Assembly: GCF_025822765.1 (NCBI RefSeq)
Contig: NZ_JACKUK010000033.1
Coordinates: 1 to 64,000 of the forward strand
DNA from: Mycobacterium barrassiae
GTDB lineage: Bacteria; Actinomycetota; Actinomycetes; Mycobacteriales; Mycobacteriaceae
DNA: 64,000 nt
Direction: 5' to 3'
This document shows positions 41,013 to 51,828 of the stretch, piece after piece (position 1 is the first letter of the stretch; each line of letters begins with the position of its first letter). Made by a program: the position numbers and the translations under genes. Under the pieces are notes generated by a model. It searched no databases and had not been told where the DNA came from. It was given only the letters and a program-made list of their open reading frames with translations.

Positions 41013-43556
41013 TCAGTTCTGGGGGCCGATCATCGCGCGCAGCATCGACAACATCTCCGACCGTGATTCGGCGCCCAACCGCCGGCGAATCCGCGCGACG
41101 TGATGCTCGACGGTCTTTGCCGAGATGAACAGTTGCGTGCCGATATCGCGGTACGGCATGCCGAGCAACAGCAGTTCGGCGACCTCGCGCTCACGATCGG
41201 ACAATCGTGTCGAGACAGGGCGGGTGGCACCCGGATGCGGCGCCTCGTTGGCCGTGGACGCGTCGACGTCCGGCGCGGCATCGAGCGCGCTGGTCTGCTT
41301 GAGGTCGCGAGCGAGTTGAAGCATCGCGCCGGAGACGCGTCCGTCGGGTGTGTGCAGTGCGGCCTGGCTGGCCAGCCGGGTGGCATCCCATGTCAGGCCG
41401 AACTGCGACAGCGCGCGGGCCGCGGCGCTGACCTCTTCTGTGTCGACATGGTTGGCGAGCACCCGCAACCACGTCCGGCCGGCCTGCGCCAGTGCCTTCG
41501 CGAACGCGCTCTTGGCGGCCGCTGCGGTCAGCGCCTGACCATGGGGCGCCACCGCCTCCGGAGAATTGGCCAGGATCCCCGCGTGCACACCGGACCAGTG
41601 CAGCGGCACCGACCACAGCAGCGGGTTGCCCAGCGACTCCAGCAGGGTGAACGCCTCATCGATGGTGTGCTGCAGTCGATCGACCTGCCGCATGCGGGCC
41701 GCGGCCACCCACAACTCGCCCAGCGGTAGCAGTGAGAAGAGGTCCATCGAATACTCGGCGAGCACCTCCATCGCCGTATACCAATGCTTCTGCACCGCGC
41801 CGCTGTCGCCGCTGCGGCGGGCGATCGCGGTCTGCAACGCCGCCGCCCACAGCGCGTCGCGCCGATGCAGCGGGGTTTCGGCATGGGCGGTCGCGGCCAT
41901 CACGTCGGCAGTCGCCGCGGTCAGCTGGCCGTCGAGCATCCTCACCCAGCCGAGCAGCAGCCGGTGCCTGCGTGCGACGAACGTCATGCTTTCCGGGTCA
42001 TCCTGGGGTGCCGTGCGTACGGCGCGGCTGATCACACTGCGAGCGCGGACCGGGTCGCCGCCGTGCAACGCGGCCAATGTGACGAGCGCGGCGGGTGTAT
42101 CGGGCGCCACCACGGTCGGCTGCGGTTCGGCGACGATCGACTGTCCCAGCCGTGCAACCGCTGAGGGATACGGCGCCTCGAGGGACAACAGCAGACCCTC
42201 GGCGAGACTGCGGGCGGCGCGCGACGTCGACGTCGGCGGTCCTGCGTTCTCGGCACTGAGCGCCGCGCGCGCCGTGGGCAGATCCCCGACGGCGAGCGAC
42301 GCGATGGCACCCGCCGCGCTGACGAACGCGTCGGGATAGGGCCCGAGCCAACGGAAAAGGTCGGCGGCCTGGGCGGAACTTCCGTCGTGCGCGGCGATGC
42401 TCGCCGCGATGCGGACCGCCGCCGCGCGTTCGGCCGGATCATCGGAGCCCAGCAGATCGTCGGCGATTCGGCCGGCGGCCGTGCAGTCCCCGGTCAGTGC
42501 CAGGGCATCCGCCAGTTGCGAGTTCAGCTTCGTCGCCCCCGCATTCGTGGCTGCCCGGTAGAGCCGCGCGGCCCGTGCGGGTCGGCCGTGGTTCTCCGAG
42601 GCGAGCTCTGCCAAGGCGTTGGCCAGCCGGTCGTCACGCAGCCCGTGCTCGGCCAGCCGCAGAGCGAGATCAGTTGACAGTGTTGATGATTCGATCTGCG
42701 AGACGAGCAACGCGGTCTCGATGTCGTGATGCCGTGCCGCACCGATGATCTGCGCGATACAGCTGTGCACCGAACGTAGGAACGTATCGCTGTACGACGG
42801 CTCGAGCAGTCCGCTGGCGCGGGCGCGGTCCACCAGAGACTGGGCATGGTGAGCCTCGATCCGCAGCGTCGCCGCGACGTCGTCCGGACCGAGGTCGGGG
42901 CTCAGCGACATCACCAGCACGGTGTCCAGTACCGGTTCCTCCAGTCGGCGCAGTCGTTCGATCAGTGCGAAGCTGGCGGCATCTGCGAGCGTCGCGGCCG
43001 GTGCTTCCGCTTCGCGGGACGACGCGGCGGCGATCGCCGGTTGCACCAGAAAGGGCAACCCGGCCGTCGCCGCCATGAGTGCCCGGACGAACTCGGATGT
43101 CGGTGGGGCGTCGAAGGTTTCGGTGCAGATACGGGTGACGTCGGCGGGGCTCAACGCGCCGACCGAGACGGCGGGGTTCTCGCGTTCGATTGCGGTCGCC
43201 AGGGCGCGGAGAGCCGGGCGGTGTACGAGGGGTTCGGTCGCGACGACGACGGTGGAGGCGGGATCGGCGACGAGGTCGACGAGTTGTGCGAGTTCGCCGT
43301 CGTCGAGCAGATGCGCGTCGTCGATCACCACCGCGGCGTTGCGATCGTCACCGCTGCGGGGTGGCCGGGTGAGCACCGGCACGCCCGCGGTCCGTAGCGC
43401 GGCACGCACCGCGGCGAGTACGGAACTCTTACCGCTACCGATGCCGCCGGACACCAGGATCTTCACCGGGTCGCCCGGCGCAGCCGTCAGCGCGGCGACG
43501 GCGTCACGCGCGGGCGGCGGGATCTCGGCCGCTTGCTCGGGCGCCGGCTTCGGCAT
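41013..43556 (-). CDS. iniR: LuxR-type ATPase regulator of the ini operon (IniR-like)
   Basis: The 847-residue protein has an N-terminal P-loop (ILVSGGIGSGKSS, about 33-45), Walker B AAVVIDDAHLLDDGE, a long helical TPR-like middle, and a C-terminal LuxR HTH (TRLSDREREVAELLLLGMPYRDIGTQLFISAKTVEHHVARIRRRLGAES). This is the STAND/LAL regulator class; the gene at this place is Rv0339c (IniR), reported to control iniBAC, recalled not checked. ATG 43556 lies 3 bases after the stop of the Hsp70-like gene, so the two are co-transcribed. It faces away from the iniB cluster. Confidence 0.88.
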   Translation of the reverse strand: MPKPAPEQAAEIPPPARDAVAALTAAPGDPVKILVSGGIGSGKSSVLAAVRAALRTAGVPVLTRPPRSGDDRNAAVVIDDAHLLDDGELAQLVDLVADPASTVVVATEPLVHRPALRALATAIERENPAVSVGALSPADVTRICTETFDAPPTSEFVRALMAATAGLPFLVQPAIAAASSREAEAPAATLADAASFALIERLRRLEEPVLDTVLVMSLSPDLGPDDVAATLRIEAHHAQSLVDRARASGLLEPSYSDTFLRSVHSCIAQIIGAARHHDIETALLVSQIESSTLSTDLALRLAEHGLRDDRLANALAELASENHGRPARAARLYRAATNAGATKLNSQLADALALTGDCTAAGRIADDLLGSDDPAERAAAVRIAASIAAHDGSSAQAADLFRWLGPYPDAFVSAAGAIASLAVGDLPTARAALSAENAGPPTSTSRAARSLAEGLLLSLEAPYPSAVARLGQSIVAEPQPTVVAPDTPAALVTLAALHGGDPVRARSVISRAVRTAPQDDPESMTFVARRHRLLLGWVRMLDGQLTAATADVMAATAHAETPLHRRDALWAAALQTAIARRSGDSGAVQKHWYTAMEVLAEYSMDLFSLLPLGELWVAAARMRQVDRLQHTIDEAFTLLESLGNPLLWSVPLHWSGVHAGILANSPEAVAPHGQALTAAAAKSAFAKALAQAGRTWLRVLANHVDTEEVSAAARALSQFGLTWDATRLASQAALHTPDGRVSGAMLQLARDLKQTSALDAAPDVDASTANEAPHPGATRPVSTRLSDREREVAELLLLGMPYRDIGTQLFISAKTVEHHVARIRRRLGAESRSEMLSMLRAMIGPQN

Positions 43557-43559
43557 GGA

Positions 43560-45353
43560 TCACGAACCGTCGTCAGGAATCACCACGTCAGGTGTGGTGG
43601 TGATCGGCTCTTCGGTTGTCGTCGGCTCTTCGGTGGTGGGTTGTGTGGTGGTGGGCTGAGTGGTCGTGGGTTGCGTCGTCGTCGTAGTTGTCGGTGTGGT
43701 CGTCGTTGTCGTGGTGGTGGTTGTCGTTGTCGTGGTGGTTGTCGTACTCGAGGTCGTCGACGGCGTGGTGGTCGTCGTCGTGGTCGTCGACGGAGGCGGC
43801 ACCACCGTGGTGCTCGGGCGACCGTCGGATCCCGTGACGGTGATGGTCTCGGACGTAGCGGGCGGACCCGCGGGCGACGGACCGGTCTCGACGGTCGTCG
43901 CCGTCTCGGTCACCGGCCCCGTACTGCCCGTCGTGCTCGTCAGCGTGACTGCGAGGCCGCCGATGGCCAACAGCACCGCTGCGGCCGCCGCGCCGAAGAG
44001 GATGGTCGGCCGCTTGTACCAGGGCAGCGGCCCGGGTTCCGGGGTGAAGCCTTCCTCTTCATGGCTGAACTCCATCGGCGGGCGGGCCGCGCCGGTGGTC
44101 GACGGATCGAACGTGTAGTCCTCGCCGGTGTAGGGCACCGGCTCGCCCGCGGGGGCGTCGTCCTGCGACCACGCGAGCGCGCGGAACGTCGACGACGCCG
44201 GGGCGTCGGAAGCCGCATCGGCGGCTGCTGCACCCGCTGCTGCCGCACCGGCCCACCCCATGGTCGGGGCCAGTCCCGTTGGGGCGTCGGCAGCGGTCGC
44301 CATTCCGGTTGCGGCGTCGGCACCGGCGGCCAGCACCGCCGCGCCCGCCGCCACATTCAGTTGAGATTGCGGCGTCGTGATGACGGGAGCGCGGAACCGG
44401 GTCGACAGCTGCTGGGTGACGAGCGGGATGTTCGCTCCTCCGCCGACGGTGGCGACCGCCGAGATATCCGAGATCCCAACGTTGTTGCGCTGCAACGTTT
44501 CTTCGACCGTGTCGAGCAGACCGTTCAGGGGTCCGGCGATCAGCTGTTCCAGCTCGGTGCGTGTCACGCGGACGTCGGAAGCGAATCCGGGCAATTCGGC
44601 GTGCACGGCTGCGGCCGTCTCGGCGGACAGCCGCTCCTTGGCCACCCGGCAGTCGTTGCGCAACCGGGCCAACGAGCCGACCGCCGCCGTACTCGCAGGA
44701 TCGGAGGCGTTGGCCTCCGCGATGCCGGTCAGCACATGATTGAGCAGCGCCTGGTCGATCTGGTCACCGGAGAAGTCCGGGTAACGGACCGTCTCGCCGA
44801 TGGTGTCGAAGTTGGCGCCCGCATTGGCCAGCGTGATGCTGGTGCCGCTGCCACCGAAGTCGCACAGCACCACGACACCACTGGACGGCAGCCCTGGCGC
44901 CGATTGCAGTGCCGAGAGTGCGGCGACGGAATCGGGGACCAGCGCGGGAATCACTCCGTCGGGTGCCAGGCTGGGCCTGCCGCGCAACGCATTGCGCAGC
45001 GCACCCACGGTGGCGGCGCTCCAGTGCGCGGGCACCGCGATCGCGATGGGTGCCCCACCTCCGACCGTGCGGGCCATCGCATCGAGGGCTTCGACCAGCA
45101 CCTGCTCCCCGCGGTGCGCCGAACCGTCGGCCGCCACCAGCGGCACCGGGTCGCCGACTCGCTCGACGAACCCGGTCAGCACCATGCCCTGCTGGGGCAC
45201 GGACGGGTCCGCCGCGAATTCCGACGGCAGGCCCACTTCCGGCGGGCGATCGTCGAACACGGTGAGCACTGATCGCCGCATGACTGGGGGCCGGCCCATG
45301 CGAGCCGCCACTAGATTGGTCATCCCAATCGACAACCCGAGAGAGTCGCTCAT
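43560..45353 (-). CDS. Membrane-anchored Hsp70-like protein with threonine-rich tail
   Basis: The 597-residue protein has an Hsp70/actin-type ATPase-like head (about 1-360: SLGLSIGMTNLVAARMG, VVVLCDFGGSGTSITLA, AVATVGGGANIPLVTQQLS). A linker and a single transmembrane helix follow (about 447-470, ILFGAAAAAVLLAIGGLAVTL), after the juxtamembrane motif GPLPWYKRP. The exterior tail of about 125 residues is dominated by Thr runs with Pro, a plausible O-mannosylation substrate. It resembles mycobacterial Pro/Thr-rich Hsp70-like proteins such as Rv0312, recalled. ATG 45353 with AAGGAAAAG is preferred to 45404. Coupled to iniR, it is a candidate envelope sensor. Confidence 0.82.
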   Translation of the reverse strand: MSDSLGLSIGMTNLVAARMGRPPVMRRSVLTVFDDRPPEVGLPSEFAADPSVPQQGMVLTGFVERVGDPVPLVAADGSAHRGEQVLVEALDAMARTVGGGAPIAIAVPAHWSAATVGALRNALRGRPSLAPDGVIPALVPDSVAALSALQSAPGLPSSGVVVLCDFGGSGTSITLANAGANFDTIGETVRYPDFSGDQIDQALLNHVLTGIAEANASDPASTAAVGSLARLRNDCRVAKERLSAETAAAVHAELPGFASDVRVTRTELEQLIAGPLNGLLDTVEETLQRNNVGISDISAVATVGGGANIPLVTQQLSTRFRAPVITTPQSQLNVAAGAAVLAAGADAATGMATAADAPTGLAPTMGWAGAAAAGAAAADAASDAPASSTFRALAWSQDDAPAGEPVPYTGEDYTFDPSTTGAARPPMEFSHEEEGFTPEPGPLPWYKRPTILFGAAAAAVLLAIGGLAVTLTSTTGSTGPVTETATTVETGPSPAGPPATSETITVTGSDGRPSTTVVPPPSTTTTTTTTPSTTSSTTTTTTTTTTTTTTTTTPTTTTTTQPTTTQPTTTQPTTEEPTTTEEPITTTPDVVIPDDGS

Positions 45354-45416
45354 CTTTTCCTTCGCGTTTCGGCCGAACCTCACGATAGCGGCTCGGTGCG
45401 CCAATCCACGGCATTC

Positions 45417-45455
45417 CCCCTATGCCGCAAAAACCCCTAACGCCGGGCCCCCTAA
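45417..45455 (+). promoter_or_regulatory. CCCCTAA repeat cluster upstream of the IniB-like gene
   Basis: CCCCTAT (45417), CCCCTAA (45434) and CCCCTAA (45449) are spaced 17 and 15 bases, in the promoter region shared by the Hsp70-like/iniR and IniB-like transcripts. The same heptamer recurs three times before iniB. Confidence 0.45.
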
Positions 45456-45584
45456 TACTCCGGCTCTAGAGGTGGGTTTCACACCGATCTCTGCGGCATC
45501 GGCCGTCGATAGCATCGTTCTCAAGCCATCCGGCTCGCATATCTGTACTGCCGCATATATCTCAATCGGGAGGGAGGGTGTTTC

Positions 45585-46106
45585 ATGGCCAACGAGTTGC
45601 TCGACTTCGTGCTGTCTCTGGTGCGCGATCCGGACGCCGCGGCGCGATTCGCCGAAAACCCGGACCAGGCCATCCTCGACGCCAACCTCACCAACGTGAC
45701 CAGTGCCGACGTCAACAATCTGATCCCGGTCGTCACTGAGTCGTTGGGGGCAGCCGTGCCGGCCGTAGGGGCTGAGGGCGTCACCGACGTCACAGAAAAC
45801 ATCTGGGCCAGCGGTGCCGCCACGGCCGCTTTCGACGCATTCGACGATCAAGTGCCAGTTCAGGCCGTCGACGGCGGGCACGCGGCGATCGTCGACTACG
45901 TCGATACGCCCGACCAGCTGCTGGACGCGCTCGACGACTCCGGCGTACCTGGCGTCGTCGGCTCCGAGGACGGCGGGCTGCAGTTCGATCAGCCCACGCT
46001 CGATGATCTGCCGGAAGTCGACCTGCCGACCGGCGGCGATGTGAGCGCCACCGTCATCGAGGTCGCCGACATGGATTCCGACCCGTCCGGATTCGACATC
46101 TTCTAA
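45585..46106 (+). CDS. IniB-like protein (Rv0340 type)
   Basis: The 173-residue protein shares its first 50 residues with the neighbouring IniB: MANELLDFVLSLVRDPDAAARFAENPDQAILDANLTNVTSADV parallels MTNIIDWILDLFRDP...DPSRSMAAANLSNVSAAQM. So it carries the same N-terminal domain but a different acidic, Asp/Val-rich C-terminus (DYVDTPDQLLDALDDSGV). No signal peptide is visible. GGGAGGG precedes ATG 45585. It is followed by a strong terminator, so it is transcribed separately from iniB. A function in envelope stress is inferred from place. Confidence 0.85.
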   Translation: MANELLDFVLSLVRDPDAAARFAENPDQAILDANLTNVTSADVNNLIPVVTESLGAAVPAVGAEGVTDVTENIWASGAATAAFDAFDDQVPVQAVDGGHAAIVDYVDTPDQLLDALDDSGVPGVVGSEDGGLQFDQPTLDDLPEVDLPTGGDVSATVIEVADMDSDPSGFDIF

Positions 46107-46124
46107 CGACCCAGCACCACCACG

Positions 46125-46161
46125 ACTGCGCGGCCCCGAAAAGGGCCGCGCAGTTTCGTTT
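46125..46161 (+). terminator. Rho-independent terminator after the IniB-like gene
   Basis: ACTGCGCGGCCC (46125-46136) pairs perfectly with GGGCCGCGCAGT (46143-46154) over a six-base loop, followed by TTCGTTTA. It separates this transcript from iniB. Confidence 0.9.
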
Positions 46162-46182
46162 ATTGCGCCCTTTGACGACCAT

Positions 46183-46208
46183 CCCCTAACAACCCCCTAA
46201 TCCCCTAA
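46183..46208 (+). promoter_or_regulatory. CCCCTAA repeat cluster upstream of iniB
   Basis: CCCCTAA occurs at 46183, 46194 and 46202 (spacing 11 and 8). The cluster lies about 150 bases before the iniB start and uses the same heptamer as the cluster at 45417-45455. Confidence 0.45.
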
Positions 46209-46355
46209 CGCAAGCGCGATCGCAACCCGAGTTGTACCGCCCAATCGAGGGGATTCGGCCCCGTTTCCGGGGGGTCGTGGCGTCCATAACGTGGTCTTCA
46301 GTTCGCCGGACAGCCGGTGACCAGCTCCCGACAAACACGACCAAAGGACAGAGAA

Positions 46356-47342
46356 ATGACGAACATCATCGACTGGATCCTGGACCTCTTCCGTGACCCG
46401 GTGCGCGCCCAGGAGTTCATCACCGACCCGAGCCGCTCCATGGCCGCGGCCAACCTCTCCAATGTGAGTGCGGCCCAGATGCAGGCTGTCGCAGCCACGG
46501 TGGCACCCGCCGCGGTCCTGCACGGCGGCGGCGACCCGGTCGTCGGGCTCCAGCAGGCGGTGGCGCAGACCCACGGCATCGCGTTTGCGCCGCAGCGTCA
46601 GACCGAGGCGCTGTCGAACAACGACACGCTGAGCCACAACGACACTCGCTTCATGAGCCCCGAGACCCACGTCGCCAACACGGCGGGTGAGGATCAGCAG
46701 CAGGGTGTCGGCAACTTCAGCCTGGACTTCGGCGACATCACCTTCGGCGACAAGACCACCAACACCGCCAACAACGGCGGTGTCGTGAACACCGGTACCG
46801 CAGGCGATATCGATGCGACCAACGTCGACGGTGACGGAAACGTGGTCGGCGACGACAACGAGAACGTCAACACCGGCGACATCGACGACTCCAACGTCAA
46901 CATCGGTGAGGACAACGAGATCGACGACAGCGGGGACCAGACCGCGGGCGGCGACATCATCTCCGACAACGACGGTCCCGTCATCAACGACGTCGACATG
47001 AGCGGCGGCGACGGCGGCGGCGCTGTTGGCGGAGACGGCGGTGGTGGGCTGATCGGCATCGGCAACGACGGTGGCAACGCCTCCGGCGGTGCGGGCGGAT
47101 CGGGCGGCGGGATCGTCATCAACGACACCACCACTGTCGGCGGGAACCAGACCACGGTCAGCGACGTCGACGCCGACGTGCTGGGTGGTGTCTCTGGCGG
47201 CGTCAGCTCCGGGGACAGCTCGGTGGACAACTCCATCGATGACTCGGTGGACAACTCCGGCCAGGACCTGTCGGTCGACAACTCGAATCAGGTCACCACG
47301 GTCGTCGACGTCGACAACACGGTCGACGCCGGCCTGTTCTGA
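46356..47342 (+). CDS. iniB: IniB, isoniazid-inducible protein
   Basis: The 328-residue protein has the conserved N-terminal helical domain (MTNIIDWILDLFRDP...ANLSNVSAAQMQAVAATVAP). A long Asp/Asn/Gly/Ser/Thr-rich region from about residue 100 to the end follows (NTGDIDDSNVNIGEDNEIDDSGD, GGGDGGGAVGGDGGGGL, SVDNSIDDSVDNSGQD). The repetitive part is likely an elongated beta-helix or a calcium-binding surface. IniB is strongly induced by cell-wall inhibitors together with the dynamin-like IniA and IniC. ATG 46356 follows AAAGGACAGAGA. The Mtb homologue is longer (about 479 residues), the difference being in the Gly-rich part. Confidence 0.9.
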   Translation: MTNIIDWILDLFRDPVRAQEFITDPSRSMAAANLSNVSAAQMQAVAATVAPAAVLHGGGDPVVGLQQAVAQTHGIAFAPQRQTEALSNNDTLSHNDTRFMSPETHVANTAGEDQQQGVGNFSLDFGDITFGDKTTNTANNGGVVNTGTAGDIDATNVDGDGNVVGDDNENVNTGDIDDSNVNIGEDNEIDDSGDQTAGGDIISDNDGPVINDVDMSGGDGGGAVGGDGGGGLIGIGNDGGNASGGAGGSGGGIVINDTTTVGGNQTTVSDVDADVLGGVSGGVSSGDSSVDNSIDDSVDNSGQDLSVDNSNQVTTVVDVDNTVDAGLF

Positions 47343-47362
47343 GCCGCAGCACGAAAAACGCC

Positions 47363-47395
47363 ACTGGCGGGGATCGAAAAGCGATCCCCGCCAGT
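47363..47395 (+). terminator. Strong hairpin between iniB and iniA
   Basis: ACTGGCGGGGATCG (47363-47376) pairs perfectly with CGATCCCCGCCAGT (47382-47395) around a five-base loop. No U-tract follows, so it may act as a partial terminator or an RNA-stabilising 3' end that leaves iniB mRNA in excess over iniA-iniC. Confidence 0.75.
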
Positions 47396-47452
47396 CGGCA
47401 CATCTACCGTTGGTACGAAGCGTCTCGCGGCGCCGCCGACAAGAGGGACTTC

Positions 47453-49315
47453 ATGACGCAACCGAGCGAGGGCACGGCCGGCGGGCCGGCCAGACCCGTA
47501 AAGGTCATCGTCGAGCTGATCGACCACACCAGCAAGATCGCCGAGGCGAACGAGCGCGGTGATCTGGTCGACCGGCTGGCCAGGGCCAAGTCCCGGATCA
47601 CCGATCCGCAGATCCGGGTGGTGATCGCCGGACAACTCAAGCAGGGCAAGAGCCAACTGCTCAATTCGCTGCTGAATGTGCCGGTCTCGCGCGTGGGCGA
47701 CGACGAGAGCACCGTGCTGCCGACGGTGGTGTCCTACGGCGAAACCGCCACGGCCAAGCTGATCGTCGCGCGGCCGGACGGTGCCGAGCCGGAGGTCGTC
47801 GACATCGCGATGGACGACATCAAGAGCGATCTGCGCCGTGCGCCGCAGGCCGGTGGGCGCGAGGTGCTGCGGGTCGAGGTCACCGCCGCCAGTCCACTGC
47901 TCAAGAACGGCTTGACATTCGTGGACACGCCGGGGGTCGGTGGTCACGGCCAGCCGCACCTGTCGGCGACGCTGGGCCTGTTGCCCGACGCGGCCGCGGT
48001 GTTGATGTGCAGTGATACCAGCCAGGAGTTCACCGAACCGGAGCTGACCTTCATGCGGCAGGCATTCGAAATCTGCCCGGTCGCAACGGTCGTCGCCACC
48101 AAGACCGATCTGTACCCGCACTGGCGCAAGATCGTCGAGACGAACAAGGGCCACCTGGACCGGGCGGGCCTGTCGATACCGGTCATCCCGTCGTCGGCGC
48201 TGCTGCGCAGTCACGCGATCCAGCTCAACGACAAGGAACTCAACGAGGAGTCCAACTTCCCGGCGATCGTCAAGTTCCTCAGCGAGCAGGTACTGTCGCG
48301 ACAGAACGACCATATTCGTGATCAGGTTGTTGCCGAGATCCGTTCTGCGGCTGAGCATCTGGCGATGAAGGTGAACACCGAGCTGGCGGCGCTGAACGAT
48401 CCGGACGTCCGCGACCGGCTGCAGGACGACCTCGAACGGCGGAAAAGGGAGGCGGCCGACGCGCTGGAGCAGACCGCACTGTGGCAGCAGGTCCTCAACG
48501 ACGGAATCGCTGATCTCACAGCGGATGTCGACCATGACCTGCGTGGCCGCTTCCGCGTCATCGGTCAGCACATCGAGAAGGAGATCGACTCCTGCGACCC
48601 GACACAGCACTGGGCCGAGATCGGCACCGAGCTGGAGAACGCGATCGCCACCGCGGTCGGGGACAACTTCGTGTGGGCGTACCAGCGTGCCCAGGCGCTC
48701 GCCGAGGAGGTGGCCCGCACGTTCAGGGAGGCCGGGCTCGAGGCGGTCAAGATGCCGCGGATCGACGCCCGTGAGATGGGCGCCAGCCTCGGCGAGATCA
48801 AGTCGCTGTCCAACCTGGAGGCCAAGCCGGTCGGTAAGGGGCGCAAGGTCACCATGGGTATGCAGGGGTCCTACGGCGGCGTGCTGATGTTCGGGATGAT
48901 GACGTCGTTCGCCGGCCTCGGCATGTTCAATCCGCTGTCGATCGGGGCGGGCCTGTTGATGGGGCGCAGCGCTTACCGGGAGAACATGGACAACCGGATG
49001 ATGCGGGTCCGCAACGAGGCGAAGCTGAATGTCCGCCGCTTCATCGACGACGTGTCGTTCGTCGTGAACAAGGAATCCCGCGATCGGCTCAAGGGTATTC
49101 AGCGGCAACTGCGCGACCATTACCGCGCCATCGCCAACCAGACGACCCGTTCGCTCAACGAATCGCTGCAGGCGACGATCGCCGCGGCGAAACTCGAGGA
49201 GAACGAACGCAATACCCGCGTCAAGGAGCTCGAACGTCAGCTCAACATTCTCAACCAGGTGCTCGATCACGCAGGCAAGCTGGCGGGCGAGGCACACCCT
49301 TCGGGGGCCACCTGA
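47453..49315 (+). CDS. iniA: IniA, dynamin-like GTPase
   Basis: The 620-residue protein has the dynamin-family G domain: P-loop G60-QLKQGKS67, D158-TPG switch (FVDTPGVGGHGQ) and VATKTDLYPHW base recognition. A long helical stalk follows, with a hydrophobic, Gly/Met-rich paddle (GSYGGVLMFGMMTSFAGLGMFNPLSIGAGLLMG, about residues 470-505) that would insert into membranes. IniA is induced by isoniazid and ethambutol and is thought to remodel or repair the plasma membrane with IniC. AAGAGGGACTTC precedes ATG 47453. It lies 27 bases before iniC. Confidence 0.95.
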   Translation: MTQPSEGTAGGPARPVKVIVELIDHTSKIAEANERGDLVDRLARAKSRITDPQIRVVIAGQLKQGKSQLLNSLLNVPVSRVGDDESTVLPTVVSYGETATAKLIVARPDGAEPEVVDIAMDDIKSDLRRAPQAGGREVLRVEVTAASPLLKNGLTFVDTPGVGGHGQPHLSATLGLLPDAAAVLMCSDTSQEFTEPELTFMRQAFEICPVATVVATKTDLYPHWRKIVETNKGHLDRAGLSIPVIPSSALLRSHAIQLNDKELNEESNFPAIVKFLSEQVLSRQNDHIRDQVVAEIRSAAEHLAMKVNTELAALNDPDVRDRLQDDLERRKREAADALEQTALWQQVLNDGIADLTADVDHDLRGRFRVIGQHIEKEIDSCDPTQHWAEIGTELENAIATAVGDNFVWAYQRAQALAEEVARTFREAGLEAVKMPRIDAREMGASLGEIKSLSNLEAKPVGKGRKVTMGMQGSYGGVLMFGMMTSFAGLGMFNPLSIGAGLLMGRSAYRENMDNRMMRVRNEAKLNVRRFIDDVSFVVNKESRDRLKGIQRQLRDHYRAIANQTTRSLNESLQATIAAAKLEENERNTRVKELERQLNILNQVLDHAGKLAGEAHPSGAT

Positions 49316-49342
49316 CGTCGAGGTGCCTAAGCTGGACTGTCG

Positions 49343-50836
49343 ATGAGCACAAGTGATCAGGTGCGCGCGATCCTGGACGGAACCATCCAGGCGTACCGAT
49401 CCGACCCCGCTTACGCGCAACGGCCCGATGTCCACAACGAACTGGACCGGATTGGCCGCCGACTCAACCAGCCGATCCGCATCGCGCTGGCGGGCACACT
49501 CAAGGCCGGCAAGTCGACGCTGGTGAATGCCCTTGTGGGAGAGGACATTGCACCGACGGATGCCACTGAAGCCACTCGGATCGTGACCTGGTTCCGGCAC
49601 GGGCCGACGCCCAAGGTGACCGCAAACCACAGGGGCGGCAGGCGATCCAACGTGCCGATCGGTCGCGACCCCGTCGGGGGCGGGCTCACGTTCGACTTCG
49701 CCGCGCTCGATCCCGAGGATGTCGTCGACCTGGACGTGGAGTGGCCCGCCGCGGAACTGATCGACACGACGATCGTCGACACCCCCGGTACGTCGTCGTT
49801 GTCCCGGGACGTCTCCCAGCGCACGTTGCAGCTGCTGGTACCGGAGGACGGCGTCCCCAGGGTCGACGCCGTGGTGTTCCTGCTGCGCACCCTGAACGCC
49901 GCTGATATCGCGCTGCTCAAGCAGATCGGCGAGTTGGTGGGGGGATCCACCGGAGCGCTCGGCGTGATCGGGGTCGCCTCCCGGGCCGACGAGATCGGCG
50001 CGGGCCGCATCGATGCGATGCTGTCGGCCAAGGATGTTGCGGCCCGGTTCACCACCGAGTTGGAGCGCACCGGAATCTGCCAGGCGGTGGTGCCGGTCTC
50101 GGGGCTGCTCGCGCTCACGGCGCGCACCCTGAGGCAGAGCGAGTTCGTCGCGCTGGAGAAGTTGGCCGGGGTCGACGCGGCGGAGTTGACGAAGGCGATG
50201 CTGTCGGTGGACCGATTCGTCCGCGAGGACAGCCAACTGCCCGTCGACGCCGCCACCCGGGCCGCATTGCTCGATCGGTTCGGCATGTTCGGGATCAGGA
50301 TCTCGATCGCCGTGCTGCGCGCCGGAGTCAGCGATTCCCTCGCCCTCGCCGACGAGCTGCTGGAACGTAGCGGCCTGGTTGCGCTGCGCGACGTGATCGA
50401 TCAGCAGTTCGCGCAGCGCTCGGACCTTCTCAAGGCGCACACCGCACTGATGTCACTGCGACGATTCGTGCAGAACAACCCCATCTACGCAAGCAACTAC
50501 ATCATCGCCGACATCGACCCGTTGCTCGCCGACACCCATGCGTTCGAGGAGCTCCGGCTGCTCAGTCAATTGCGTTCTCGTCCAACGACATTGAACGACG
50601 ACGAGATCGCTTCACTGCGGCGCATCATCGGCGGCTCCGGCACCGACGCCGCCAGCAGGCTCGGGCTGCAACCCGATGCCCCGTACGACGGTCCGCGCGC
50701 CGCGTTCGCCGCCGCCCAGCGGTGGCGTCGACGCGCCGAACACCCGCTCAACGATCCGTTCACGACGCGCGCGTGCCGGGCCGCGGTGCGGAGCGCGGAG
50801 GCGCTGGTGGCGCAGTACGCGGCTCAGGGCCGCTGA
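49343..50836 (+). CDS. iniC: IniC, dynamin-like GTPase
   Basis: The 497-residue protein has a dynamin-type G domain: P-loop AGTLKAGKSTLVNAL with GKS at 56-58, and D146-TPG in IVDTPGTSSLS, followed by a helical stalk region. It lacks the long hydrophobic paddle of IniA, so it probably works as its partner. It is smaller than IniA, as in M. tuberculosis (493). ATG 49343 follows closely on iniA, one operon. Its 3' end converges on the gene for the first small Thr-tailed membrane protein with only 27 bases between. Confidence 0.93.
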   Translation: MSTSDQVRAILDGTIQAYRSDPAYAQRPDVHNELDRIGRRLNQPIRIALAGTLKAGKSTLVNALVGEDIAPTDATEATRIVTWFRHGPTPKVTANHRGGRRSNVPIGRDPVGGGLTFDFAALDPEDVVDLDVEWPAAELIDTTIVDTPGTSSLSRDVSQRTLQLLVPEDGVPRVDAVVFLLRTLNAADIALLKQIGELVGGSTGALGVIGVASRADEIGAGRIDAMLSAKDVAARFTTELERTGICQAVVPVSGLLALTARTLRQSEFVALEKLAGVDAAELTKAMLSVDRFVREDSQLPVDAATRAALLDRFGMFGIRISIAVLRAGVSDSLALADELLERSGLVALRDVIDQQFAQRSDLLKAHTALMSLRRFVQNNPIYASNYIIADIDPLLADTHAFEELRLLSQLRSRPTTLNDDEIASLRRIIGGSGTDAASRLGLQPDAPYDGPRAAFAAAQRWRRRAEHPLNDPFTTRACRAAVRSAEALVAQYAAQGR

Positions 50837-50863
50837 GCGGCCAATTCAGCCGGGGCCGTTAGC

Positions 50864-51343
50864 TCAAGGGGCGGGCTCGGTCACCGTTTCGGTTTCGGTG
50901 ACGGTGCTGGTCTCCGTGCTCGTACTCACACTCGGCGACGTCGTGGTGGTAGTGGTGGTCGTCGTCGGGGGCGTTGTGGTTGTGGTTGTTGTCGTCGTGG
51001 TCGGCTCGGTGGTCGTCGGAGTGTAGGTCTCCGTGACGGTCTGGGGCGCCGACGTCGTCGTCGTGGTCGGCACCACCGACCTGGAAGTCGTGGTGAGCGG
51101 AGTCAACGGGGTCTGTTCGGCGGGCTCGTCGCCGCCGGTGATGAGTTTGGCGAGCCCGAAGACGATGAGCGCGAACACCACTGCGCCGAGGGCGCCGAAT
51201 CCGACCAGCGCGGCGGGCCGGCGGTACCACGGTCCGGGATCGCCGGGCGGCTGACCCGGCGGCTGGTTGTAGTTCGCGTAGACGGTCGGGTCGTCGTCGG
51301 GGTAGTTAGGGTCGTCGGGAGATCCGTATCGCGCCACGGGCAC
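50864..51343 (-). CDS. Single-pass membrane protein with Thr-rich tail, paralogue 1
   Basis: The 159-residue protein has an N-terminal Pro/Asp-rich cytoplasmic part, then GPWYRRP at about 38-43, one transmembrane helix (about 44-68), and a tail of about 80 residues dominated by Thr with Val/Pro, ending TVTETETVTEPAP. The layout matches the neighbour at 51357 and the end of the Hsp70-like protein, so the three form a family around iniBAC. The start region is identical over 20 bases to paralogue 2, with a TACTAT -10 box two bases before the first GTG. A leaderless start at the second GTG (51337) is likely. Function unknown. Confidence 0.75.
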   Translation of the reverse strand: MPVARYGSPDDPNYPDDDPTVYANYNQPPGQPPGDPGPWYRRPAALVGFGALGAVVFALIVFGLAKLITGGDEPAEQTPLTPLTTTSRSVVPTTTTTSAPQTVTETYTPTTTEPTTTTTTTTTTPPTTTTTTTTTSPSVSTSTETSTVTETETVTEPAP

Positions 51344-51356
51344 CGATAGTAGGCGC

Positions 51357-51794
51357 TCAGGGGTAGGGATTGAGCGTGCGCGTCACATTGGTGCGCGGTC
51401 GTTGCCGTGTTGTTCTCGTGGGTTCCTCTTCGCGGGTTGCGGTTCGGGCGGTCGTCGGTTCGGTCGACGGCGTACTACTCGATGTGGTCGACGTTGACTC
51501 GCTCCCCGATGTGGTCGATGAGGGATTGATGTCGGTGGTCTCCGGGGGACTGGTACTCGTGATCGTCTGAGTGGTGGTGGCCGCCGACTCCGACGCGGTC
51601 GCGGAGAACGTCGGTTCGACGAAGTCGATGGGGGCTTGGTCGGGTTGACCGAACTGACGGGACAACGTCATCGCCGCAACGATCAGGATGCCGACCACCA
51701 CGAGAGCCAGAAAGCTAGCCCCGACCACCGCCGGGGTGCGGTTGTGCCAGGGCTGTCCGTTTTCATCCTCGTCAAACCGGCCGGCCACGGGCAC
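51357..51794 (-). CDS. Single-pass membrane protein with Thr-rich tail, paralogue 2
   Basis: The 145-residue protein has GQPWHNRTP at about 13-21, one transmembrane helix (about 22-44, PAVVGASFLALVVVGILIVAAM), and a Ser/Thr-rich exterior tail rich in acidic residues (FVEPTFSATASESAATTTQTITSTSPPE...), ending in a basic Arg/Thr stretch. It is the tandem paralogue of the gene at 50864, 13 bases away on the same strand. Its start shares 20 identical bases (CTACTATCGGTGCCCGTGGC), including a TACTAT -10, so a leaderless start at GTG 51788 (MAGRFDEDENG) is likely. The unusually Thr-rich surface suggests glycosylation in the cell wall. Confidence 0.72.
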   Translation of the reverse strand: MPVAGRFDEDENGQPWHNRTPAVVGASFLALVVVGILIVAAMTLSRQFGQPDQAPIDFVEPTFSATASESAATTTQTITSTSPPETTDINPSSTTSGSESTSTTSSSTPSTEPTTARTATREEEPTRTTRQRPRTNVTRTLNPYP

Positions 51795-51828
51795 CGATAG
51801 TAGCCGCGACCTGCATCTCCACGCCTGT

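Follow-up and report, generated by a model that had tools for sequence, protein, structure and literature searches.

A 64,000-nucleotide (nt) stretch of the Mycobacterium barrassiae genome (contig NZ_JACKUK010000033.1, positions 1 to 64,000; hereafter the window) carries iniBAC, the classic response to isoniazid and ethambutol, together with iniR and a gene, hsp, for a membrane-anchored Hsp70-like protein. hsp lies directly before iniR on the same strand, and its upstream region has in common with that of iniB a predicted IniR operator made of CCCCTAA repeats. We tentatively propose that hsp is a pseudo-Hsp70 working with IniR, either relaying a signal to it or restraining it, a reading that we regard as plausible though still short of probable. 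An earlier note on this DNA had drawn attention to three single-span, N-in proteins beside iniBAC, each with a PWYKRP, PWYRRP or PWHNRT motif and a Thr-rich tail: the products of hsp (at 43560) and of the genes at 50864 and 51357, designated M50 and M51. All three are present as described, on the minus strand. The observation holds; the motif is of secondary interest, and what matters most is the pairing of hsp with iniR and the operator predicted for it.

Linkage of hsp and iniR

The gene following hsp was identified as iniR by an NCBIfam equivalog model (Table 1). In the window, 3 nt separate the hsp stop codon from the iniR ATG. To place this in a wider context, 80 named loci with iniA relatives were searched by tblastn, and relatives of most window genes were found wherever the contig extends; minus-strand matches up- or downstream of iniA numbered 69 for hsp, 62 for M50 and 61 for M51, with some cross-hits in the latter two sets. 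The hsp open reading frame (ORF) is conserved in 64 of the 69 loci, the remaining five being truncated or incomplete. Both ends of the gap between hsp and iniR could be placed in 55 named loci, and in all but one of these (54) its length falls between -15 and +19 nt. Alignments exclude hsp of L094 and iniA of L030, which have a stop inside their stretches. By this arrangement, hsp and iniR form an operon in which hsp is the gene closer to the promoter and which runs divergently from the Rv0340-family gene.

Of 351 genomes surveyed, 40 of them in the genus, 200 gave a match to iniA (E ≤ 1e-30) and 214 a match to Hsp70-like genes (E ≤ 1e-20); adjacency counts rest on the best-scoring matches listed. 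Within the genus, 28 of the 40 genomes have iniA, and hsp lies divergently upstream of it on the same contig in 22 of these; in one of the 28, the best Hsp70-like match is on another contig. Among the matches listed for other genera, hsp is divergent and approximately 2–6 kb upstream of iniA in 33 of 35 genomes, and the remaining two comprise one with hsp and iniA on different contigs and one without listed iniA coordinates. Of the 11 other-genus loci that were fetched (L142–L152), those in which both genes were called (all except L142, L144, L145, L148 and L151) keep hsp beside iniR.

The main rival explanation reads such proximity differently. In it, hsp is an effector scaffold that recruits or gates IniA and IniC in membrane repair or vesicle release rather than a relay, and its joint action with these two proteins would account for its place in the IniR regulon. 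It draws on the position of hsp close to iniA in 27 of the 28 iniA-bearing genus genomes (22 divergent upstream, five beyond iniC) and in the 33 of 35 other-genus genomes among the matches listed, as well as on the presence, in 35 named loci, of a second Hsp70-like gene past iniC. IniA is reported to cut membranes in vitro (PMC6715688), and according to a review M. tuberculosis releases fewer vesicles when IniA/IniC are lost (PMC11077946). The tightest coupling of hsp, however, is to iniR and not to iniA or iniC, and hsp-like genes remain in 12 genus genomes without an iniA match. We therefore favor a partnership of hsp with IniR and consider the scaffold somewhat unlikely.

A probable pseudo-Hsp70

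The hsp product consists of a cytoplasmic Hsp70-type ATPase fold, a linker, the PWYKRP motif, one helix and a Thr-rich outer tail. In Hsp70 proteins, catalytic and metal-binding roles are assigned to particular Lys and Asp residues. hsp has the nucleotide-binding domain of the Hsp70 superfamily fold but, compared with DnaK (4ani_C), Hsc70 and Ssb1, the DnaK-type catalytic Lys and Mg-binding Asp residues are replaced. Across 25 aligned rows, the Lys is Val or Ala in every row, the first Asp has given way to Ser in the mycobacteria and to Ser, Arg, Thr or Lys in other genera, and the second Asp is retained only in L147 and L152. Also unlike these chaperones, hsp has no recognisable substrate-binding domain: no Pfam or NCBIfam match was found past the ATPase domain, where the linker, the added membrane helix and the low-complexity outer tail stand instead. 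These features suggest that hsp is probably an inactive, membrane-anchored pseudo-Hsp70.

Relatives of hsp in other genera (L143, L146–L152) have basic residues, not PWY, ahead of the helix, and their tails are Ala/Pro/Gly- or Asp/Gly-rich. More generally, the tail composition of Hsp70-like proteins varies by paralogue and genus (Thr, Pro/Glu, Ala/Gly). The M. barrassiae genome encodes a second such protein on contig C35, with the motif, and a third on C29, with a Thr tail and the motif reduced to a TWQRVP variant. In the 35 named loci mentioned above (L039, L042, L045, L049, L074 and others), the second Hsp70-like gene is on the plus strand, approximately 1.6 kb past the iniA end, a place where it is absent in the window species. 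The proteins encoded there have mostly Pro/Glu/Ser-rich tails, some with a terminal Cys pair, and form a separate clade (FastTree support 0.98). The Hsp70-like proteins from genomes that lack iniA or have hsp on the far side of iniC (L135–L141) cluster together among the iniR-linked ones (support 0.93). A genuine dnaK is located near iniBAC in L030, L033, L034 and L038, approximately 5–8 kb past the iniA end, so that true DnaK and pseudo-Hsp70 are close neighbours there.

A predicted operator at hsp and iniB

IniR of M. tuberculosis is reported to bind directly upstream of iniBAC (PMC5760070). An alignment of the region between hsp and Rv0340, taken from the window and 18 named loci, revealed repeated CCCCTAA boxes. 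The predicted site, CCCCTAA-N8-CCCCTAA, is common to the hsp and iniB upstream regions, and the pair pattern CCCCTAA-N5-14-CCCCTAA occurs at only two places in the whole genome, at hsp and upstream of iniB. A spacing of 8 nt is the most frequent in the named loci (63 of 92 pairs). In 67/67 named loci the 300 nt preceding hsp contain at least one box, and in 61 a pair; in four named loci, an additional pair stands directly before another Hsp70-like gene after iniR. Not even one box of this predicted site was found within 300 nt upstream of M50 (0/50) or M51 (0/53).

The pair is present in 64 of 98 genus genomes (94 matches). Ten of the 98 are known to have iniA, and all of them carry it, their 16 matches being at hsp, iniR, iniB or the second Hsp70-like gene; it was found in none of the five known to lack iniA. 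A search of the open-licence literature found no published IniR site or CCCCTAA site. On the basis of these boxes, hsp is predicted to belong to the IniR regulon. Between window positions 45370 and 45520 there are more conserved blocks, namely CACCGATC and GATAGCATC, a possible -35/-10 of the Rv0340-family gene, and, near hsp, CACNNTAG, a possible minus-strand -10.

The juxtamembrane motif

The sequences directly before the helix are GPLPWYKRP in hsp, GPWYRRP in M50 and GQPWHNRTP in M51, and Thr accounts for 49%, 46% and 27% of the respective tails. The motif that the earlier note saw in all three is common to hsp and M50 as WYxRP, whereas M51 has W-H-[NHE]-[RS]-T instead. A whole-genome search with a codon pattern (PW[YH], two polar or basic residues, then P, T, S or A) gave 23 matches, more than expected by chance (11 for the pattern read backward); 20 were read, and the other three (L018, L025, L026) share 17 letters with L012. 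For five matches, the reading is in frame and a hydrophobic helix follows directly. This locus accounts for three; the other two belong to the Hsp70-like protein encoded on C35 and to a Ser/Thr kinase encoded on C44. In a census of 1.02 Mb (51 stretches of contigs C9, C23 and C25; 971 genes by a simple gene caller, 281 with 1–3 hydrophobic segments), five proteins passed a loose motif rule and none combined motif, helix and Thr-rich tail. The same census on the 55 window genes passed four proteins, three of which were hsp, M50 and M51.

In related genera, the columns for motif and helix in a juxtamembrane profile of M50 matched unrelated proteins; the 20 selected match places that were read also included true M50 relatives and motif-free places. 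Among these 20, NPWYRRP or NPWFKRP is found at the end of sodium:solute (SSF) symporters, RPWYRRP before the FtsQ helix, and RPWYRR before a helix of an EmbC-type arabinosyltransferase (L232; G250 C2, 981617), a protein of the ethambutol target family. Among the called genes of L142–L152 none bears the motif, and the Hsp70-like proteins of other genera keep their neighbourhood without it. A shared-motif family was rejected because the motif precedes helices of unrelated proteins; its proposed role as a mark of family or docking is not supported.

We read PWYxRP mostly as an interfacial membrane-edge anchor of aromatic residues and inner-side positive charge, which fits its presence in SSF symporters, FtsQ, the arabinosyltransferase and the kinase. 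These proteins, and the variable tail make-up described above, would also suit a wider claim: that the motif is a generic aromatic-belt and positive-inside signature, that the Thr tails are unspecific spacers, and that hsp, M50 and M51 have only their location in common. This we consider unlikely, as the motif is rare in the genome (none with a Thr tail in the 1.02-Mb sample) and nearly fixed in orthologues, and the end of the M51 tail is conserved.

The small proteins M50 and M51

M50 is conserved in 50 of its 62 named-locus matches, the rest being 11 cross-hits to the neighbour and one broken gene. For M51, 53 of 61 have W[YHF][NHE][RS][TP], the rest being four cross-hits, three variants and one truncated gene. 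The M51 C-terminus is RPRxNxTRTLYP-like (window 51360–51407), with N.TRT[LI] in 49 of the 53, and is possibly a wall-binding or recognition tail. M50 and M51 have an identical start context, TACTATCGGTGCCCGTGGC, whose first 11 letters are found nowhere else in the genome. A TANNNT box is positioned 6–8 nt before an in-frame start in 50/50 M50 and 50/53 M51 orthologues, a count that allowed several starts per gene; the background is 0.5% of all ATG/GTG. In M. tuberculosis the -10 element is usually TANNNT (PMC3898074), and this placement thus makes a leaderless start likely. M50 and M51 are therefore predicted to have their own leaderless promoters.

Co-occurrence with iniBAC differs between the two. 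At E ≤ 1e-19, M51 was found in 17 of the 351 genomes. Each of these belongs to this genus and has M51 less than 8 kb from iniA; at E ≤ 1e-3, matches extend to 71 genomes and are mostly partial and weak. M50-like proteins, by contrast, are present in 40/40 genus genomes, including all 12 without an iniA match. In four of the five fetched loci without iniA, the M50-like protein adjoins an Hsp70-like gene with PWYKRT; the IspQ-like gene is near and iniR is absent. The partners of M50 and M51 are probably to be sought in the pseudo-Hsp70 family at large and not in iniBAC.

These results bear on the proposal of the earlier note that the three proteins form one envelope-stress module with wall-sensing tails and a Trp-Tyr docking site. 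The genes are clustered and conserved, and three of the five motif-before-helix cases of the genome are here. However, M50 and M51 have no box of the predicted operator, the motif is present in unrelated proteins, the M50 family survives without iniA, and in the fetched other-genus loci hsp stays next to iniR and none of the called genes bears the motif. A single module is thus very unlikely. What stands of the coherent set is hsp, tied to iniBAC by its operon, the predicted operator shared with iniB and synteny across genera, together with the closeness of M51 to iniA at strong scores.

M51 resembles the Rv0361 family (NF051431) around the helix, and membership was rejected on a weak local score of 14.9 bits against a curated cut-off of 37. 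Four proteins of the genome exceed that cut-off (C33:73245, 97951, 112240 and C41:17764), three of them on the contig of the window. A match of M50 to gliding_GltJ (NCBIfam; 18.4 bits, cut-off 450) was taken as a low-complexity artefact. At C29:77916–78206 of this genome (G000) there is an M51-like stretch with one internal TGA, possibly a decayed copy.

Genomic context

The 5.9-Mb genome (G000; the window is on contig C33) is near Mycobacterium neglectum and Mycolicibacterium species; over the best segment, IniA shares 88% identity with its M. neglectum counterpart. The gene order begins with an IspQ-like reductase gene and continues with iniR and hsp on the minus strand, the Rv0340-family gene, iniB, iniA and iniC on the plus strand, and M50 and M51 on the minus strand, followed by an F420-dependent oxidoreductase gene and a probable lipoprotein gene. 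CCATGGCATCAGCGCCC recurs at the starts of contigs C2, C20 and C46 (24 bases in) and at C16:376549 and C16:376673; its position 24 bases from three contig starts suggests that it is probably a repeat that broke the assembly.

Table 1. Features of the iniR–M51 region, in window positions.
Feature	Position	Strand	Remarks
iniR, second gene of the hsp-iniR operon	41013..43556	-	NCBIfam NF038181 equivalog, 1447.7 bits, cut-off 750
hsp, membrane-anchored Hsp70-like protein	43560..45353	-	ATG start corrected from alignment
PWYKRP juxtamembrane motif of hsp	44007..44024	-	
Hsp70 nucleotide-binding-domain-like part of hsp	44310..45353	-	
Predicted IniR operator 1, divergent hsp/Rv0340 promoter region	45417..45455	+	CCCCTAT at 45417, CCCCTAA pair at 45434-45455
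Rv0340-family IniB-related protein, divergent from hsp	45585..46106	+	NF038176, 201 bits, cut-off 100
Predicted IniR operator 2, upstream of iniB	46183..46208	+	Three CCCCTAA boxes
iniB	46356..47342	+	NF038175, IniB N-terminal domain
iniA, dynamin-like	47453..49315	+	Dynamin_N; 80 named relatives
iniC, dynamin-like	49343..50836	+	Dynamin_N
M50, small N-in single-span protein: PWYRRP, helix, Thr-rich tail	50864..51337	-	Most likely start GTG 51337
Predicted -10 box of M50	51346..51351	-	TACTAT, leaderless-type
M51, small N-in single-span protein: PWHNRT, helix, Thr/Ser tail ending in conserved RPRTNVTRTLNPYP	51357..51788	-	Likeliest start GTG 51788
Predicted -10 box of M51	51797..51802	-	TACTAT, leaderless-type

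Discussion

In the proposed mechanism, the cytoplasmic domain of hsp would bind IniR and keep it inactive or near the membrane, with the Thr tail as a wall-embedded anchor or spacer. A change outside, such as free trehalose or lost wall contact, would release IniR, which would then assemble on the CCCCTAA repeats and switch on iniBAC, the Rv0340-family gene and hsp-iniR itself. A more specific version, in which a non-hydrolysing, membrane-spanning Hsp70 links a periplasmic wall-damage signal to IniR and the repeats are the operator, with feedback on its own operon, is possible but doubtful.

There is a precedent for part of this scheme: MalT is held at the membrane by MalK, and its target sites are direct repeats. 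IniR has been compared with MalT (PMC5760070). By analogy, a membrane-bound partner may hold the regulator, and the predicted sites are likewise direct repeats; the partner here, however, is a pseudo-Hsp70 and not an ABC ATPase, and its binding to IniR is putative. In the accessible text of the same paper, experiments with an M. marinum sugA mutant lead to the conclusion that passage of trehalose through the membrane is probably not required and that the sensing system is periplasmic, and no transmembrane partner is named in that account. Where it stands beside iniR, hsp is a fitting candidate for that partner.

Several observations weigh against our proposal. By the measure used, hsp and iniR are not adjacent in L098, and all 12 of the 12 genus genomes without an iniA match have Hsp70-like genes, so the family has some role without IniR. 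The hsp tail and motif are not conserved across genera, the linker motif ALAWS[QE]D is found in 46/61 only, W[YFH][RKN][RK] occurs in 25 of the 35 Hsp70-like genes downstream of iniC, and M51-like matches at E ≤ 1e-3 are found also in iniA-less genomes. Read backward as a control, the pair pattern was found once in this genome and in 25 of the 98 genus genomes (31 matches), and the motif pattern gave 11 matches against 23. The exact pair is missing at hsp/Rv0340 in 17 of the 80 named loci; 12 of these have less than 2.4 kb before iniA on the contig, and L058, L070, L093, L096 and L101 have the hsp/Rv0340 stretch yet no exact pair. Only two of the 11 fetched other-genus loci (L146, L150) have it at hsp. 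As far as the accessible text of PMC5760070 goes, the periplasmic inference comes from M. marinum, and a dnaK-like gene beside iniR is reported only for M. smegmatis, as a difference; together with hsp beyond iniC in five of the 28 genomes, this implies that not every species has such a relay next to iniR. According to the same text, IniR overexpression alone activates a reporter in M. smegmatis, a result that fits a titrated inhibitor as well as no inhibitor.

The earlier note knew of no description of this family, which is nearly right: in the open-licence literature searched, the Hsp70-like membrane protein and the tails are represented by one sentence of PMC5760070 only, that on the M. smegmatis dnaK-like gene, which has the same place and is the same kind of gene as hsp. 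In its accessible part, that account describes neither a membrane anchor nor a tail, and mentions no operon, no operator and no loss of the active site. It places the sensing step outside the membrane and describes IniR as a DNA-binding regulator. The hsp-iniR operon and the predicted operator provide a named candidate for the gap between outside sensing and IniR and, if true, an Hsp70 domain turned into a part of membrane signalling would be unusual.

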